64,000 nt of DNA from an uncultured Planctomycetales bacterium (lineage in GTDB: Bacteria; Planctomycetota; Planctomycetia; Isosphaerales; Isosphaeraceae). Location of the stretch: positions 1-64,000 of the forward strand of contig CAIYJE010000111.1 of NCBI GenBank assembly GCA_903926465.1, read 5' to 3'. Made by a program: the position numbers and the translations under genes. Shown piece by piece: positions 1 through 5,662 of the stretch. How positions within the stretch are numbered: the stretch's first letter is position 1; every line of letters begins with the position of its first letter. A model generated the notes under the pieces. It searched no databases. It was not told the DNA's origin and worked only from the letters and a program-made list of their open reading frames with translations.

Positions 1-62
1 AGTACATTCGCCAGCAGGAAGGGACGGAACCGGATGACGGTGGCGATAACTTCCAAATTACG

Positions 63-137
63 AAATCGTGAGCGTAGGACTTCAGTCCGGAGCCACGATT
101 TTCTTCGAACCTACCGGCTTCTAGCCGGTAGTGGTTC
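63..137. repeat. Two adjacent nested palindromes (REP-like or IS200/IS605-like end)
   Basis: The first structure has an outer 8-bp stem (AAATCGTG at 63-70 with CACGATTT at 94-101) enclosing a small GGAC/GTCC hairpin with a TTCA loop (77-88). The second has GAACC (107-111) pairing with GGTTC (133-137) around a perfect 8-bp stem, TACCGGCT (112-119) with AGCCGGTA (123-130). Paired hairpins of this kind are typical of REP elements and IS200/IS605 transposon ends. No TnpA or TnpB gene is visible in the window, so the element is either a solitary REP or the end of an insertion lying to the left. Confidence 0.45.
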
Positions 138-138
138 A

Positions 139-466
139 GTTGGGCCGGTTTTTTGGACCGGTCGACTGGGGGCTGGCACAGTTCCTCGATCCGTCGCCGA
201 GCCGCAATCCGCTCGGCGACATTGGTGAGCATCTCGGCCTAGGTCAGGTTGGACACGCTGTGCTCCAGAGCCTTGGTGTTGGAGACCGCCTAGGTAATGC
301 AGCGTCCCGACTCCCGCCAGCGGCCGATGGCAGGTTAAATCAGCAGGGCACTCAGGTTGACCCCCCCTCCACGAAGTGCGGCGGGCAGTTCTGGCTGCGG
401 CGGTAGTCCCAAAGGACCTTGCCAGAGCCTCCAAGCCCGGATATGGTTCGTGAGGGTAAGCGTCAT
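139..466 (-). pseudogene. Decayed reading frame with three in-frame stops
   Basis: Read leftward from an ATG at 466, one frame gives protein-like sequence (for example SNTKALEHSVSNL and NVAERIAARRRIEEL) but is broken by TAA at 337-335 and TAG at 292-290 and 241-239. All three stops are one C-to-T change from a glutamine codon. CAA and CAG are also used normally in the same frame, and neighbouring genes end in TAA, so ordinary decay is likelier than stop-codon recoding. The frame stays open beyond 139 through the hairpins to the window edge, which may be chance. I do not recognise the ancestral protein. The overlapping 107-residue frame at 111-434 is a shadow. Confidence 0.35.
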
Positions 467-621
467 GGCTGGGCCTCCCGGGTCTTACTGGCCCGCCGGT
501 AGGGCCTGCAGGGTGCTCTTCATCGCCTAGAGTTTGAGAGGCGCGAATCCGCTTTCTCTGCGCGGCCCCGAGTGATTGCGTTGCTCATCGGTACAGGCTC
601 CTTTGCGTTTGGGTGCGGGCG

Positions 622-1074
622 TTAGTGTTTGATGGTGACACCGAGAGATTCGGCCACGTCGTAAGATACTCCTAAGCCGGTGACGTAAGCCACCTCTGCT
701 CCTCGTCCCCAAATTGTCTCGATAGCATCGCGGGTGGCGTCCGCTTTGGTCTTGGCTGGCGATGACTGCGTAACAAGAGGACCACCGTCACCGCACCAGT
801 GGTATCCATTTACGTCCTCGAAAATATAAATCCCGACCGGGTTAGCAATGGGAATGTCGGCTAGTTCAGGTTCGCCATACGATTTCTGTTTGGACCACCT
901 TTCCCCTTCGTCAAAGCTGGCTTGGAATTGCCAGACTTTGTGATCACCCCATTCTTCGCACGTGACATTGCGAATCAGGGTACCGGCCTGGAGATAGCCC
1001 TCTTCAATCTCCTGCCCAGTGATGCCGTGAATGGTCGTGGAGAATAGGTTGCGAACCAGAATCTTGACGCTCAT
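622..1074 (-). CDS. Uncharacterised 150-residue protein
   Basis: I do not recognise this protein. It is soluble-looking, with no signal peptide or membrane segment, has a mixed central part rich in W, G and E, and ends with an Ala/Gly-rich stretch and GVTIKH. I chose the ATG at 1074 over the longer frame beginning at 1146 because an AGGAG ribosome site (1081-1085) sits 6 nt upstream and the extra N-terminus reads through the intergenic decamer. It is the last gene of the leftward cluster, about 55 nt after the XRE-like gene. A GGGTGCGGGC copy sits 1 nt beyond its stop codon and another 26 nt upstream of its start. Confidence 0.7.
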   Translation of the reverse strand: MSVKILVRNLFSTTIHGITGQEIEEGYLQAGTLIRNVTCEEWGDHKVWQFQASFDEGERWSKQKSYGEPELADIPIANPVGIYIFEDVNGYHWCGDGGPLVTQSSPAKTKADATRDAIETIWGRGAEVAYVTGLGVSYDVAESLGVTIKH

Positions 1075-1129
1075 AGTTTGGCTCCTGCTAAGGTAATAAA
1101 GGGTGCGGGCAGACACGCGAGGATCGCCT

Positions 1130-1474
1130 TTACTTTGATTGAGCAATCGGCTTCTTCGCTTTGATGACTACCGGGTCGGGAATCGTTTCGGACAGTCTGC
1201 GTGGGTTGGTCTTCAGCGGTCTCCCAGACCGCCGTACAACTTCGGGGAGATCGCCATCAAGATCAACTCCGTGCTCTTCTGCGAGCCTGCGGATATAGAT
1301 CTCTGATAGTTTCCCAGGTTTTGAGTGGGTGCTTGATTCAGGATCCTGGCACCACTTTGCTACGGCCGTCAGCGTCACGCCAATTTGTTCGGCAAGTTGA
1401 CGGCTATTCCAGTTCAGGGCATGGAGTAGGTAGCGAATTTGCGTAGGGGTCAGTTTTTTTGATTTAGTGCTCAC
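1130..1474 (-). CDS. Small XRE-like helix-turn-helix DNA-binding protein
   Basis: This is a 114-residue protein starting at GTG, with a GGAG site about 8 nt upstream. Residues 11-45 read as a lambda-Cro/XRE-type helix-turn-helix: a helix around IRYLLHALNW, then SRQLAEQIGVTLTAVAKWCQD with the typical small-residue turn and recognition helix. The tail is basic and Pro-rich (SGRPLKTNPRRL). Proteins of this family act as phage or plasmid repressors or regulators. It lies between the AAA+ gene and the 150-residue gene, and copies of the local decamer flank the gene on both sides. That makes this protein a candidate binder of the decamer, though this is only inference. Confidence 0.7.
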   Translation of the reverse strand: MSTKSKKLTPTQIRYLLHALNWNSRQLAEQIGVTLTAVAKWCQDPESSTHSKPGKLSEIYIRRLAEEHGVDLDGDLPEVVRRSGRPLKTNPRRLSETIPDPVVIKAKKPIAQSK

Positions 1475-1505
1475 GGTAAGGCTCCGAATTGGGTGCGGGC
1501 GGTTT

Positions 1506-2657
1506 TTAGCCGTTCCGTGTTTTGGATTGAGACTTGATAAGACGTGCGAGTTTTGCTTCCGCTTTGACGAGATTTTCGTCCACTAGGTTGGCCTGCTCTT
1601 CGAGATCGGCGTCTTCCTGCTGAAGAGTTTTCAGTTGGAGTTTGAGCTTTGCAGTCTGCTCTTTGTTTTTGGAGTTCTTGATAGCAGACTTAATCTTGGC
1701 AATGGCTGCTTCGATTTCGAAGAAACGTGTGCCCATTTTTGCCAGTTCGTCATCGTAGCGATCGACCTCAATCTTCTGAAGGACCACTTCACGTGAGTCC
1801 GCAACGTGGGTGCGGGCCGGTTCAGATCTTGCCGGTTTATCGTCCTTCGCCTGGACAGGCTTCTGGACAGTTTTCACGGCCTTGGCATCCTTTGCCGCCT
1901 TGGCCAACGCGGGCTTGAGCCCTTGGCTGAATGGGATGATCATAGGCATCCCATCGTATTCGTGCTTCGCCATCTCCTGCCTCCACTTCTTGAGAATCCG
2001 CTCCATGTGCGTACAGATGCGACGGAACGAAAGGTTTCCATCAGAGTCCGTGAGGTCGCCAATCGCCTCATAATCCGGAGCGTTCTTGGACTGTCCGGTT
2101 TCCCCACACCAGATTTTGCGAACGTAAGCATCCGCAGCTTCTTTGACGCTTGCGGGGTTGGCGTCAAACATAAATCGTTTGCAACGGTCGGCAAGCCTGG
2201 TCTTGATCTTCTCGGGATAGTTGGTTGTAAATATCACCAGCCGCCGTGGTGGCATGTTTCGTTTCTCAAGAGCATTCAGCCAGATGGTGCCCACCTGCTC
2301 GCTCATCCGGTCAGCTTCTTCCACCAGCAGGACTTTCCAGCCGCTGGAGTTGGAAGCACAGACACGAAGATGGTCAAGTTGGGTGCGGACCTGATCCGCT
2401 GTCTGCTCGCCTGATGGGATGCATGTGAATCCACCCCAGATATCGTCGGGGTCGCAACCAATGGCGCGAGCGAGAGCCAGAGCCGTGCTGGTCTTACCGG
2501 TGCCGGTCGGACCTTCCAGAAACATTCCCGTCGATGTTGGTGACTCCAGCCATTCTTGAAGCTCTTCAATAATTGCGTCCTGGCCCAGGACATCACCGAG
2601 TGTGACTGGGCGGTACTTTTCATCCAGGTCAACGATAGGAGCAAGTTCAATCGACAT
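1506..2657 (-). CDS. AAA+ ATPase of the RFC/DnaX clamp-loader type
   Basis: This 383-residue protein opens with an RFC-like N-terminus (EKYRPVTLGDVLGQD). It has Walker A (GPTGTGKTS), Walker B (VLLVEEADR), a sensor-1 region (RLVIFTTN) and DRCKRF in the place of the SRC arginine-finger motif. The family loads ring-shaped sliding clamps or runs related ATP-dependent switching during DNA replication. The C-terminal third differs from chromosomal DnaX: a Lys/Ala-rich linker and then a long predicted coiled coil, with no zinc module seen. The ATG at 2657 follows a GGGAGA site, and a strong promoter lies just upstream. Its phage- or plasmid-like surroundings suggest it serves a mobile replicon. It could instead be a generic RarA-like AAA+ protein. 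Confidence 0.8.
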   Translation of the reverse strand: MSIELAPIVDLDEKYRPVTLGDVLGQDAIIEELQEWLESPTSTGMFLEGPTGTGKTSTALALARAIGCDPDDIWGGFTCIPSGEQTADQVRTQLDHLRVCASNSSGWKVLLVEEADRMSEQVGTIWLNALEKRNMPPRRLVIFTTNYPEKIKTRLADRCKRFMFDANPASVKEAADAYVRKIWCGETGQSKNAPDYEAIGDLTDSDGNLSFRRICTHMERILKKWRQEMAKHEYDGMPMIIPFSQGLKPALAKAAKDAKAVKTVQKPVQAKDDKPARSEPARTHVADSREVVLQKIEVDRYDDELAKMGTRFFEIEAAIAKIKSAIKNSKNKEQTAKLKLQLKTLQQEDADLEEQANLVDENLVKAEAKLARLIKSQSKTRNG

Positions 2658-2687
2658 GATGCTGAGTCTCCCTGGCTGATGGTCTAT

Positions 2688-2716
2688 AGTATAGCAGAAA
2701 TAATAAAGAACTTCAA
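2688..2716 (-). promoter_or_regulatory. Extended -10 sigma70-type promoter of the AAA+ operon
   Basis: On the minus strand, TTGAAG (2716-2711) is followed after exactly 17 nt by TATACT (2693-2688). A TG lies one base before the -10 hexamer, as in extended -10 promoters. Transcription would start near 2681, about 24 nt before the ATG at 2657. The -35 box directly abuts the stop codon of the small ORF upstream. This is the best promoter match I noticed in the window, and it would drive the AAA+, XRE-like and 150-residue genes. Confidence 0.6.
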
Positions 2717-2920
2717 TCACGAAAACATTCGAAGCTGACCAGGAAGATCGGGAATTTCCTTGTCAGTCCGGGCTTTCTTTTTCGATGAAATGTCCGATCG
2801 AAGCACGAATGGCACTTCCGTTCCGTCTGAGTACATTTCTTTTTCGTGACAGTCGCCATCCGGGGGGCGTGCGATTGTCGTTTCGTTTATCGTCCCCTTT
2901 AACTTGGAGGTCTTTGCCAT
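2717..2920 (-). CDS. Small hydrophilic orphan ORF (67 residues)
   Basis: This reads as a short, charged, soluble protein (MAKTSKLKGTINET at the N-terminus, a Lys-rich SSKKKARTDKE segment, and QLRMFS at the end). No family is recognised. Its ATG (2920-2918) is preceded by an AAGGA-like site about 8 nt upstream, and its stop abuts the -35 box of the next promoter, which fits a real, tightly packed gene. Against it, its start codon overlaps by two bases that of the opposite-strand small membrane-protein gene, whose Shine-Dalgarno sequence is better. One of the two may be spurious. Confidence 0.45.
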   Translation of the reverse strand: MAKTSKLKGTINETTIARPPDGDCHEKEMYSDGTEVPFVLRSDISSKKKARTDKEIPDLPGQLRMFS

Positions 2921-3104
2921 GAAGATGTTCCTTACTAACATGAAGGTAAACTGGAAGACCACGCTGGCTGGTATTGCAACCGGCCTGTTTGCTTCGTTTC
3001 AGTTTGTTCAGGCGTTGCGAGGCCAGGCCACTGCCGATCAGGTGATGGCTGCTTTGGGCCAGTTCTTGATGGCAATAGGTCTAGTTGTAGCCAAAGACGC
3101 CTGA
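2919..3104 (+). CDS. Holin-like small membrane protein (61 residues)
   Basis: A GGAGG site 8 nt upstream sets the ATG at 2919. The protein has NWKTTLAGIATGLFASFQF followed by a second hydrophobic segment ending GLVVAKDA. This layout (NWKTT-x-AG, a short linker, then GL-x-x-AKD) is familiar from small holin-like proteins of phages and of bacterial cryptic elements. It would sit in the inner membrane. Assignment as a holin is by resemblance only, because no endolysin is next to it. It is the only rightward gene in the accessory region and is followed 26 nt later by a strong terminator. Its first codon overlaps the start of a leftward small ORF. Confidence 0.65.
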   Translation: MKMFLTNMKVNWKTTLAGIATGLFASFQFVQALRGQATADQVMAALGQFLMAIGLVVAKDA

Positions 3105-3129
3105 TCTGTTGGCGTACAAAACAAGACTA

Positions 3130-3163
3130 GCCTCAGTCGCTCATATGAGTGGCTGAGGCTTTT
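3130..3163 (+). terminator. Intrinsic terminator, probably bidirectional
   Basis: GCCTCAG (3130-3136) pairs with CTGAGGC (3153-3159), and the interior (CGCTC with GAGTGG) extends the stem nearly to the centre using G-T pairs. TTTT (3160-3163) follows on the plus strand. It lies between the convergent holin-like gene (ends 3104) and the basic HTH gene (ends 3192), so it can end transcription from both sides. Confidence 0.8.
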
Positions 3164-3191
3164 GTATTGCGCGAATGTTACACATCTTCAC

Positions 3192-3587
3192 TCAGTCGTT
3201 ACCTGAGCCATTGGGTGCGGTTTGTCCAGGACTCAGGATTGCTTGGTGTTCGTCGTTCCATTGTTCGCGAGTAACGAGGAGCTTCCGAATTCGATAGGTG
3301 GGCAGTCGAAGCCTTGTAGAGATTGAGGCGAGTGTCAAGTTTCGGGTCCAGTAAAGCGAATTGACACGATCGACTATTTCCTGATGGCTGATCATGGGTG
3401 CGGGCGGTTGCCGTTTACGTTTGCGTTTTGATTTCTTTTTTTCTTTGACGGTCTTGGTCTTTTTGATTGTTTCGGTCGCTACTTCTTTTTTGAGCATTAG
3501 TCTGACTTCCGCGATGATCAATTCTTGCTTGGTCATTGGTTCATAAGGATCACGCGGTGGAGGCGTCCAGTCTTCTGGGATATCCAA
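3192..3587 (-). CDS. Basic protein with a putative C-terminal helix-turn-helix
   Basis: The frame gives 131 residues. The middle is very basic (KKTKTVKEKKKSKRKRKR, about residues 42-60). Residues 67-105 (SHQEIVDRVNSLYW, then TLASISTRLRLPTYRIRKLL) look like a resolvase- or homeodomain-type helix-turn-helix that could bind DNA. No catalytic domain is present. The start is uncertain: TTG at 3587 has no clear ribosome site, and an ATG at 3536 gives a shorter protein beginning MTKQEL. Two copies of the local decamer lie within the gene. It converges on the holin-like gene across a terminator. The function is unknown, with a regulatory or DNA-structuring role the simplest guess. Confidence 0.55.
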   Translation of the reverse strand: MDIPEDWTPPPRDPYEPMTKQELIIAEVRLMLKKEVATETIKKTKTVKEKKKSKRKRKRQPPAPMISHQEIVDRVNSLYWTRNLTLASISTRLRLPTYRIRKLLVTREQWNDEHQAILSPGQTAPNGSGND

Positions 3588-4968
3588 TGTGTCGTTGATC
3601 CGGTCCAGTTCGCCGACGCGAACCCGTATTTTGATCTAGGATTTCATCAGGTATCCGAACTTATCCCTGAGTATCAAGCGTCCGACTGACAGCACAGGGT
3701 TAAGCGCAACGGTATCGAGACATCATTCACCAGCGATGGAGCGTGTCGCTTACCTGTGTCCCCATGTCGCTCAGAATCTAACAGTGAGCTTTGTGCAGAG
3801 TCCTTAGTGGTCTAGGATCACCGCCCGGACGCGGTCTGAGTGGGGCGAAGTCGAGGTCGCCTAGGGATCACACGAGCGGAGTTCGCCTGATGCTTCGCCA
3901 TGTTAGAGTAGCTACGCTCCCGCCCAGGCCTCTGGCGTGCCCCCTGTAGTGTCGTCTCTGGTGACGCCGTATTTTAGTCGATTAACAGAATGGATCAGCG
4001 GACGGGGCTCCTGTTGCCATTTCGGCGGTCTGCTCAAATGCTCCGAGCAAGGATTCGAGGGCCTTGTCGATTTGAGTCTCGCTCCGGTATGATTAGTACC
4101 TAAAGATGTAATCCGCAAGGCCGCCTCGACCGACAACCTTGCCACTTAAGGATCGGATCGGTGAGGTGGCGGAGACGCAGGGCATTGGCCACCGTTTTCC
4201 TACCCGGACCGCAAGTGGCAAAGTGTTCACGCTCCGAGGCACTCGTTCGAATCGAGAACACAGGGCGATCGAAGCATCCATCCCTCCATTCAGGATGGTC
4301 GTACGTGGATCGCTCATTGTTGGAATTGCGTGCCTCTGTACAAATTCACAACACACGCAGATAACGCGAAGATCTACCAACCATCGAAACCAAAGACGAG
4401 CAGCGGACTTGTGGGGCTTACGGGAGCCCGTTTGAGCAACCACAGTACCAAGGAGAGGGCACCAGGATGCGTGACCCAACCCTCTCATTTGCTGCATAGT
4501 GCTGTTGCTCAAATTGCTCATAAGGCTCTACCCGGAGCTCTGTTCGCGCAAAATCTGTGAACTTTCAGTGAAGGGGATGCGAGCAAACCACGGCGAAGCG
4601 GTCCTCAATGGACGGGCCACTGATTTGGCGAACGCTCAACCGGGTCGAGCCCGGCCCCCAGAAATTACCGGAATGCAAAACACTAGGAGTGGACGGGCGA
4701 CGGGGAGGCCGATCACATCGGTAAATTCCTCGCCGGGAAACACCTGCCAACATAGCGTGGTCGTGTCCCAGCCCTGTCAGACCGGCAGGCTCATACGAGG
4801 CACAAATCTCTATCGGACTGATACCGGAATTGTTACCGGATTTCGACCGGATACCGCGTTTTTCCGCTATTTTTTGCTTCTCTTTGAGAACCCTTGCAAA
4901 AGGATCCACAATCGCTAAAATGTACCCGAATCAAGGGATTTTCGGGCTTTCTCCCTTGGCTCCAGAAC
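3588..4968. other. Gene-poor stretch of the accessory region
   Basis: I find no frame here that reads like a complete protein. The frames at 3912-4560 are mutually overlapping and low in protein character. One short minus-strand stretch near 4090-3974 (reading SETQIDKALESLLGAFEQ and ending at TAA) looks like the tail of a lost gene but has no start. Two similar sequences, TCTAGGATCAC near 3812 and CCTAGGGATCAC near 3861, form a loose direct repeat. Overall this is consistent with decayed mobile DNA. Confidence 0.5.
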
Positions 4969-5013
4969 CGCTTTGCACGCAGGAGGTTGTCGGTTCGATT
5001 CCGTCCGTCTCCA
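4969..5013 (+). pseudogene. 3' fragment of tRNA-Ala(UGC); candidate attachment site
   Basis: The sequence matches the 3' half of an alanine tRNA: anticodon loop TTTGCAC with TGC anticodon (4974-4976), stem GCAGG, variable loop, T-loop TTCGATT (4994-5000) and the acceptor end CGTCTCCA (5006-5013). The 5' half is missing. No GGAGACG acceptor strand occurs upstream, the 5' side of the anticodon stem no longer pairs well, and the T stem has a T-T mismatch. A run of T follows (about 5017-5028). Such fragments are left when an integrative element recombines into a tRNA gene, so this probably marks the right edge of the accessory region. The intact tRNA would lie outside the window. Confidence 0.65.
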
Positions 5014-5662
5014 CTCTTATTTTTTTTGCCTGCCCTATGCACACGCAGGCAACCTCTGGCTTCTGACAACTTGGGTTAGATTTCGCCCGCAAAGCACGCG
5101 GGGCAGGGTTTAATTCTTAACTCTTGCCCAGTTGAAGAGTATCCCTTCAGACCTCCTAGATTTGTTTTCCAGGCCCTGTTTAACACCACCATGCAGTAGC
5201 AGTCACAGGCTTGGGCCGTCGGCAGTTGATTCTGCTCTGGTGACGTGAGAATTCTGGATCAATGCCGTTGATATCGCGCCAGGCCGGACGTAAAACTCGC
5301 TACAGGCGGAGTTTGGAAACAAATTCCATTCATGGTGGCTCAATCATGTATTCCATGATTGACGGCCAAACCCCGTACCTAGCCGTGGCCGCAACCAGAT
5401 AACCAAGGCATTTCCAAGATCCACGGGCCTGGAGTGAATGGGTCTTCACAATTCGGATTCTCAGGGCCGGATGCGATATCATCTGGCTGTGCTGGCTACA
5501 GGGAATTCAAAAAAATAGGGCCAATCCTCACCAGGATTCCGCTGATAGTTTTTGGGTTCAAGATTTTTGTTTCAGGTCAGATCGAGGAACAGCGGCCGCC
5601 GAGGGTTGGTATCTCATCATTCGAAACACCGCCTGATGATTTCCCTTGAGCGTCCTTGAGTT
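5014..5662. other. Intergenic region between the tRNA fragment and the FG-GAP gene
   Basis: No convincing gene. The 71-residue frame at 5434-5649 has neither a ribosome site nor recognisable sequence. A structured palindromic segment lies at 5308-5374 and is listed separately. The final 80 bases before the next gene are relatively T-rich and may carry its promoter, but I could not pick a convincing -35/-10 pair. Confidence 0.4.
5308..5374. other. Nested hairpin in intergenic DNA
   Basis: GGAGTTTGG (5308-5316) can pair with CCAAACCCC (5366-5374) with one G-A mismatch. Inside lies a perfect 9-bp stem, TCAATCATG (5340-5348) with CATGATTGA (5354-5362), around a TATTC loop. It could be a structured RNA leader, a protein-binding palindrome or the remains of a repeat. 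It is about 290 nt upstream of the FG-GAP gene. Confidence 0.4.

Follow-up and report, generated by a model that had tools for sequence, protein, structure and literature searches.

Stoperators of the Cluster A mycobacteriophages are asymmetric sites of 13 bp, of which L5 has 24 and Bxb1 has 34; they lie mainly between genes, are oriented with respect to transcription and are bound by a helix-turn-helix (HTH) repressor that is proposed to block elongation (PMC3029335; PMC9283540; PMC6550527). The L5 repressor has 183 residues, and a relative of solved structure carries two DNA-binding domains (PMC9283540). Other phages have oriented repeats tied to the starts of genes: the start-associated sequences (SAS) of cluster K phages are placed 3-7 bp upstream of starts (PMC3203893), and the repeats of Microbacterium phages, which precede starts by 22-30 bp or 14-21 bp, are unexplained (PMC7302621). 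Here we describe a set of short oriented sites in a prophage-like element of an uncultured Planctomycetales bacterium. Its right part occupies the beginning of a 64,000-nucleotide stretch (the window; contig CAIYJE010000111.1, hereafter C111, of assembly GCA_903926465.1), and we compare its sites with these phage systems.

Results

An oriented set of sites specific to the element

The decamer GGGTGCGGGC is present in five exact copies, with starts at 611, 1101, 1491, 1808 and 3396, all on the + strand. They are joined on the same strand by a copy at 2381 that matches at nine of ten positions and by one at 3213 (GGGTGCGGTT) that matches at eight and leaves the octamer core GGGTGCGG intact; this recount bears out the initial annotation, which had listed five exact and two partial copies in one orientation. 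Within positions 1-5015 the octamer occurs seven times on the + strand and never on the - strand. Neighbouring copies are irregularly spaced, at 183-832 bp, and form no tandem array.

In the genome as a whole the decamer is not enriched: the 6.9 Mb contain 36 exact copies, of which 21 are forward and 15 reverse, and the reversed control word has 55. The series at 611-3405 is its sole cluster in the genome, and a genome-wide search for the GGGTGCGG-type octamer plus GGAG gave no further cluster. That the word might occur at similar density and in mixed orientation everywhere was checked across the genome, and no second cluster came to light. When one mismatch is allowed the whole window holds 11 copies against 9.7 expected, an ordinary count; the signal is therefore the local oriented cluster and not overall abundance.

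The claim that the cluster stands far above chance also holds. At the genome background 0.013 exact copies are expected in 3 kb, which gives a Poisson P(>=5) of ~4e-12 for a word that was picked post hoc. In 1,200 Markov simulations (orders 1-3) of region 541-3660 no 10-mer reached five copies, the maximum being four, seen once. The synonymous-codon shuffle and the link to GGAGCC, both given below, are more independent tests than the cluster count. A search of Rfam gave no match above threshold. The observed set of oriented sites is thus confirmed as real and element-specific.

Copies between genes share a common layout

Since the genes that carry the sites lie on the - strand, the word is read functionally as GCCCGCACCC, usually with an A after it; on this coding strand the site has the core CCGCACCC and the full form GCCCGCACCCA. 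The three gap copies fill the spaces between consecutive cistrons, at 1-19 nt from the preceding stop codon and 16-26 nt from the start that follows (Table 1). In all three, GGAGCC and then RTG AGC come after GCCCGCACCC, so that the Shine-Dalgarno-like GGAG is located downstream of the repeat and the motif proper contains no Shine-Dalgarno sequence. The composite GCCCGCACCC-N4-18-GGAGCC has three occurrences in the genome, all in this site series, and no cluster of it was found among 398 genomes of the class. Three of the five exact copies are intercistronic, though such DNA makes up 4% of the region (binomial P 6e-4); among all seven copies, four are in open reading frames (ORFs) and three in gaps. 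The initial annotation had rightly placed copies both between genes and in coding sequence, and had overlooked the stop-to-start layout of GCCCGCACCC with its GGAGCC and RTGAGC.

Copies inside reading frames are not explained by protein sequence

Codon phase differs among the in-ORF copies: those at 1808 and 2381 are read as CGC-ACC, those at 3213 and 3396 as GCA-CCC. When synonymous codons were shuffled across four genes the mean was 0.16 octamers, and the observed four were reached in none of 5,000 shuffles; 0.04% of them yielded two exact decamers. The signal thus acts in DNA or RNA, and the two frames together with the shuffles uphold the earlier suggestion that the constraint is not on protein. 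The copies at 1808, in a non-aligned extension of its protein, and at 3396, past a Lys/Arg linker, at least, fall where protein constraint is probably weak.

The sites are carried by an element integrated into tRNA-Ala

The window is the start of C111, in a genome of 6.9 Mb and 207 contigs. The right edge of the element is marked by a 46-bp core that is the 3' part of tRNA-Ala, and the only other copy of this core is on contig C162 (L053 1471-1544), within an intact tRNA-Ala with anticodon TGC, after which a 410-aa tyrosine integrase is encoded (Phage_integrase, E=2e-15). This pair of cores, with the integrase beside the intact tRNA-Ala, is arranged as in elements that have inserted at a tRNA 3' end, and an integrase combined with a tRNA attachment site of duplicated core is among the features of an integrated tailed-phage-like element. 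The carrier is thus a tRNA-Ala-integrated, prophage-like element, whose left part is on C162, whose right part is window 1-5015 and whose middle is not in the contig. The attachment core, the integrase and the clamp-loader gene agree with the mobile, AAA+-bearing element that had been assumed as carrier.

C111 begins within repeated sequence (window 1-140) that has near-identical copies on C14 (L184) and C127 (L185), and this is probably the reason for the contig break. By its reading frame and hairpins the repeat resembles the right-hand terminus of a TnpB element of IS605 type; at 1-140 the end of a TnpB-like gene is followed by hairpins and TTCA, as at an omega RNA 3' end. Two stretches of the element, 140-540 and 3660-4960, are without credible genes or Pfam matches and are likely decayed DNA; reading frames 111-434 and 4093-4909 had no match in Pfam.

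Table 1. Sites, genes and other features of the right part of the element
Feature	Position	Strand	Remarks
Truncated ORF	start 588	-	last gene in leftward series
GCCCGCACCC copy	611..620	-	1 nt past stop of 150-aa gene, 22 nt before ATG 588; GGAGCC downstream
150-aa protein, orphan	622..1074	-	no homologue found
GCCCGCACCC copy	1101..1110	-	19 nt past HTH gene stop, 26 nt before ATG 1074 of 150-aa gene; GGAGCC downstream
XRE/Cro-type HTH protein, 114 aa	1130..1474	-	phrog_4779 E=1e-6; Pfam HTH_3 below its cut-off
GCCCGCACCC copy	1491..1500	-	5 nt past clamp-loader stop, 16 nt before GTG 1474 of HTH gene; GGAGCC downstream
Clamp-loader-type AAA+ ATPase, 383 aa	1506..2657	-	phrog_5846 E=2e-24
Exact copy	1808..1817	-	within clamp-loader ORF, in C-terminal extension outside the alignment with most relatives
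9/10 copy GTCCGCACCC	2381..2390	-	within AAA+ domain
Promoter-like TTGAAG-17-TATACT	2688..2716	-	TG before second hexamer; just upstream of clamp-loader gene
Strong terminator-like hairpin, 14 pairs	3129..3160	+	between convergent small + gene (2919-3104) and 131-aa ORF
131-aa ORF	3192..3587	-	basic linker; C-terminus weakly HTH-like (Sigma70_r4 below cut-off, E=0.04)
8/10 copy AACCGCACCC	3213..3222	-	near C-terminal end of 131-aa ORF
Exact copy	3396..3405	-	within 131-aa ORF, past basic Lys/Arg stretch, directly before in-frame ATG
Attachment-site copy, 46-bp 3' part of tRNA-Ala	4970..5015	+	right edge of element

Promoter-like matches in the region are no commoner than in shuffles, and the promoter at 2716-2688 is therefore a candidate only. 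The small + strand ORF has a good Shine-Dalgarno sequence and a hydrophobic stretch, and is holin-like by appearance, with no family match.

Relatives of the element and other oriented words

Relatives of the clamp loader, at 31-44% identity, are found in planctomycete genomes and in viral contigs. Terminase-like genes were nearby in all three of these loci whose genes were read, though the element's own middle is absent from the contig; no cluster of the GGGTGCGGGC word was seen in the clamp-loader-relative loci examined. As single-sequence queries against viral contigs, the clamp loader, the 150-aa protein and the HTH protein returned nothing close, and the latter two returned nothing close in phylum or family genomes. 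The clamp loader had one distant match among genome contigs, and the phage records searched held no close relative. Altogether, viral contigs, phage records and ~1,290 genome searches of various kinds yielded no close relative of the element. For the exact composite pattern in viral contigs, the matches listed were single, apparently chance occurrences.

Oriented words of other sequence were observed in some of the viral contigs. In the IMG/VR contig L237, which holds a distant clamp-loader match, ATAGGAGGATT is found at 760, 1430, 2232, 2930, 4032, 4672, 5347 and 8083; all eight copies stand just before an ATG, often with AACAATAACTT ahead, an arrangement that is SAS-like. The clamp-loader-bearing contigs L233 and L234 contain five copies of the word GTGACACGGCG (4843, 5178, 5230, 6811 and 7973), some of them in or near apparent gene gaps, which may be another oriented repeat. 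Apparent clusters of the octamer in L173 and L121 were rejected as compositional, the DNA being 69-72% GC.

Discussion

We tentatively favour the reading that the sites are a phage-specific, asymmetric regulatory set along the leftward-transcribed prophage genes, where a DNA-bound regulator acts on transcription, and we hold it with somewhat less than even confidence. The asymmetry and single orientation of the sites, their preference for gaps, the copies within ORFs and the nearby HTH protein together favour a stoperator-like interpretation. The sites would be bound as double-stranded DNA by a protein that the element encodes, the candidate being the co-located 114-aa XRE-like protein, and the bound protein may stop or modulate leftward RNA polymerase. 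Among the initial suggestions a protein-binding site is still the leading one. The replication-type genes could thereby be kept silent in the lysogen, as has been proposed for repressors at the stoperators of mycobacteriophages. That the HTH protein is encoded among the sites, and that the carrier is an integrated phage-like element, is consistent with such regulation.

The likeness to the Cluster A stoperators of L5 and Bxb1, seen here at the level of sequence, lies in a short asymmetric site that is repeated in one direction with respect to transcription, with three of five exact copies but three of all seven in short gaps between genes, and accompanied by an HTH protein of the same element. 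The two differ in that their sequences are unrelated, seven sites lie in 3 kb here against 24-34 per genome, many copies here are within ORFs, none is at the candidate promoter, the HTH protein is short with one recognisable domain, and the host belongs to another bacterial phylum.

Several observations weigh against regulation by a DNA-bound protein. The candidate promoter at 2716-2688, the only promoter-like site on the - strand in the part of the element that the contig covers, has no copy of the motif where the operator of a repressor would be expected. The putative binder has 114 residues and one recognisable domain, against 183 residues in L5 and two DNA-binding domains in the relative of solved structure (PMC9283540), and its fold prediction (AlphaFold2 without alignment, pLDDT 41) is too poor to use, including for a fold search. 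GGAGCC and RTGAGC beside all three gap copies point instead to translation initiation. All credible site-bearing genes are leftward, so that orientation to transcription is inseparable from the direction of replication or packaging. Finally, the viral contigs, phage records and genomes searched offered no related element in which conservation of the sites might be seen.

The strongest alternative, which we consider unlikely while giving it serious weight, is a start-associated translation-initiation cassette in the mRNA, in which GCCCGCACCC, GGAGCC and RTGAGC before co-transcribed genes are read by the ribosome or by an RNA-binding protein. It would account for the distance of 16-26 nt from all three gap copies to a start, with the common GGAGCC and start-AGC, and for a composite that, within the genome, is confined to this locus; the unexplained repeats upstream of starts in Microbacterium and cluster K phages, and ATAGGAGGATT before eight ATGs in the contig L237 with its distant clamp-loader match, also speak for it. 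Like the SAS of Cluster K mycobacteriophages and Cluster EF Microbacterium phages, the word is non-palindromic, has one orientation, lies upstream of the starts of non-structural genes and is joined to a conserved Shine-Dalgarno region. However, an SAS includes the Shine-Dalgarno sequence and virtually every copy is a few nt (3-7 bp) from a start, whereas the present word is C-rich, has no Shine-Dalgarno core within it, stands 16-26 nt upstream of starts in three copies and is not linked to a start in the other four, which are within ORFs with no convincing start downstream. In start distance and in its short gaps the series is closest to the repeats of the Cluster EC phage Quhwah (22-30 bp; 14-21 bp in Cluster EG), but those are 18-bp or palindromic, are actinobacterial, and do not as a rule include copies in ORFs. 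The excess of in-ORF copies over synonymous shuffles is better fitted by DNA binding than by a purely translational signal. The assembly has no 16S rRNA with which the motif might be compared for pairing.

It is improbable, in our judgement, that the copies act as short homologous words of a boundary or linker kind, placed where genes and domains meet, that enable modular recombination between phages. A role in phage mosaicism has been proposed for short conserved sequences at boundaries (PMC3029335), and each exact copy is indeed found either at a gene border or in a protein linker under little constraint, namely the extension at 1808 and the region past the basic linker at 3396. Phage boundary sequences are likewise short words at gene borders, but 10-16 bp is short for homologous recombination, and neither the uniform orientation nor the copies away from module borders (2381 and 3213) would be explained. 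Searches of viral contigs, phage records and the 398 class genomes brought up no mosaic partner.

We give little credence to the idea that each copy is a leftward promoter, read by a phage-specific sigma factor, or else the element of a phage-specific activator. The distance of 16-26 nt to starts would suit it, a match to sigma region 4, very weak and under the cut-off (E=0.04), is present in the 131-aa ORF, and in Cluster EC phages a similar motif goes together with a phage-encoded sigma factor (PMC7302621). On the other hand, no second box at a fixed spacing was seen, copies occur in ORFs and right after stops in a compact series of genes, and the distance to the start varies by 10 nt.

Very unlikely is a polarity signal for replication, recombination or packaging (iteron, Chi, KOPS or pac). 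The single orientation and the replication-type gene in the block are compatible with it, and iteron-type sites or orientation signals such as Chi or KOPS had been among the first suggestions. The irregular spacing speaks against iterons, whose origins have tandem, regular repeats beside a rep gene, an arrangement that this locus lacks; the genome-wide count, lower than that of the control word, and the mixed strands largely exclude a host Chi or KOPS role. The packaging reading is also unlikely, and the known integrase end of the element has no copy. Chance or an artefact of codon usage, for which one could cite the post hoc choice of word and the ordinary one-mismatch count over the whole window, is made negligible by the Markov simulations, none of which reached five copies, by the synonymous shuffles, none of which reached four octamers, and by the strict tie of the gap copies to GGAGCC.

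The stoperator-like reading leads to a broader proposal, in our view a doubtful one for now: that a planctomycete prophage uses oriented sites in gaps and, through synonymous choice, in ORFs to control its transcripts at the level of elongation, in a stoperator-like system of independent origin outside the actinobacterial phages. To our knowledge, after a brief literature search, such oriented repeats have not been described in Planctomycetota. Oriented, start-tied short repeats are best described in actinobacterial phages, where several of them are unexplained. An unrelated second example, from Planctomycetota and with copies in coding sequence that are not driven by protein, would help to separate transcription-level from translation-level roles, and the sites may offer a regulatory handle on planctomycete prophages.

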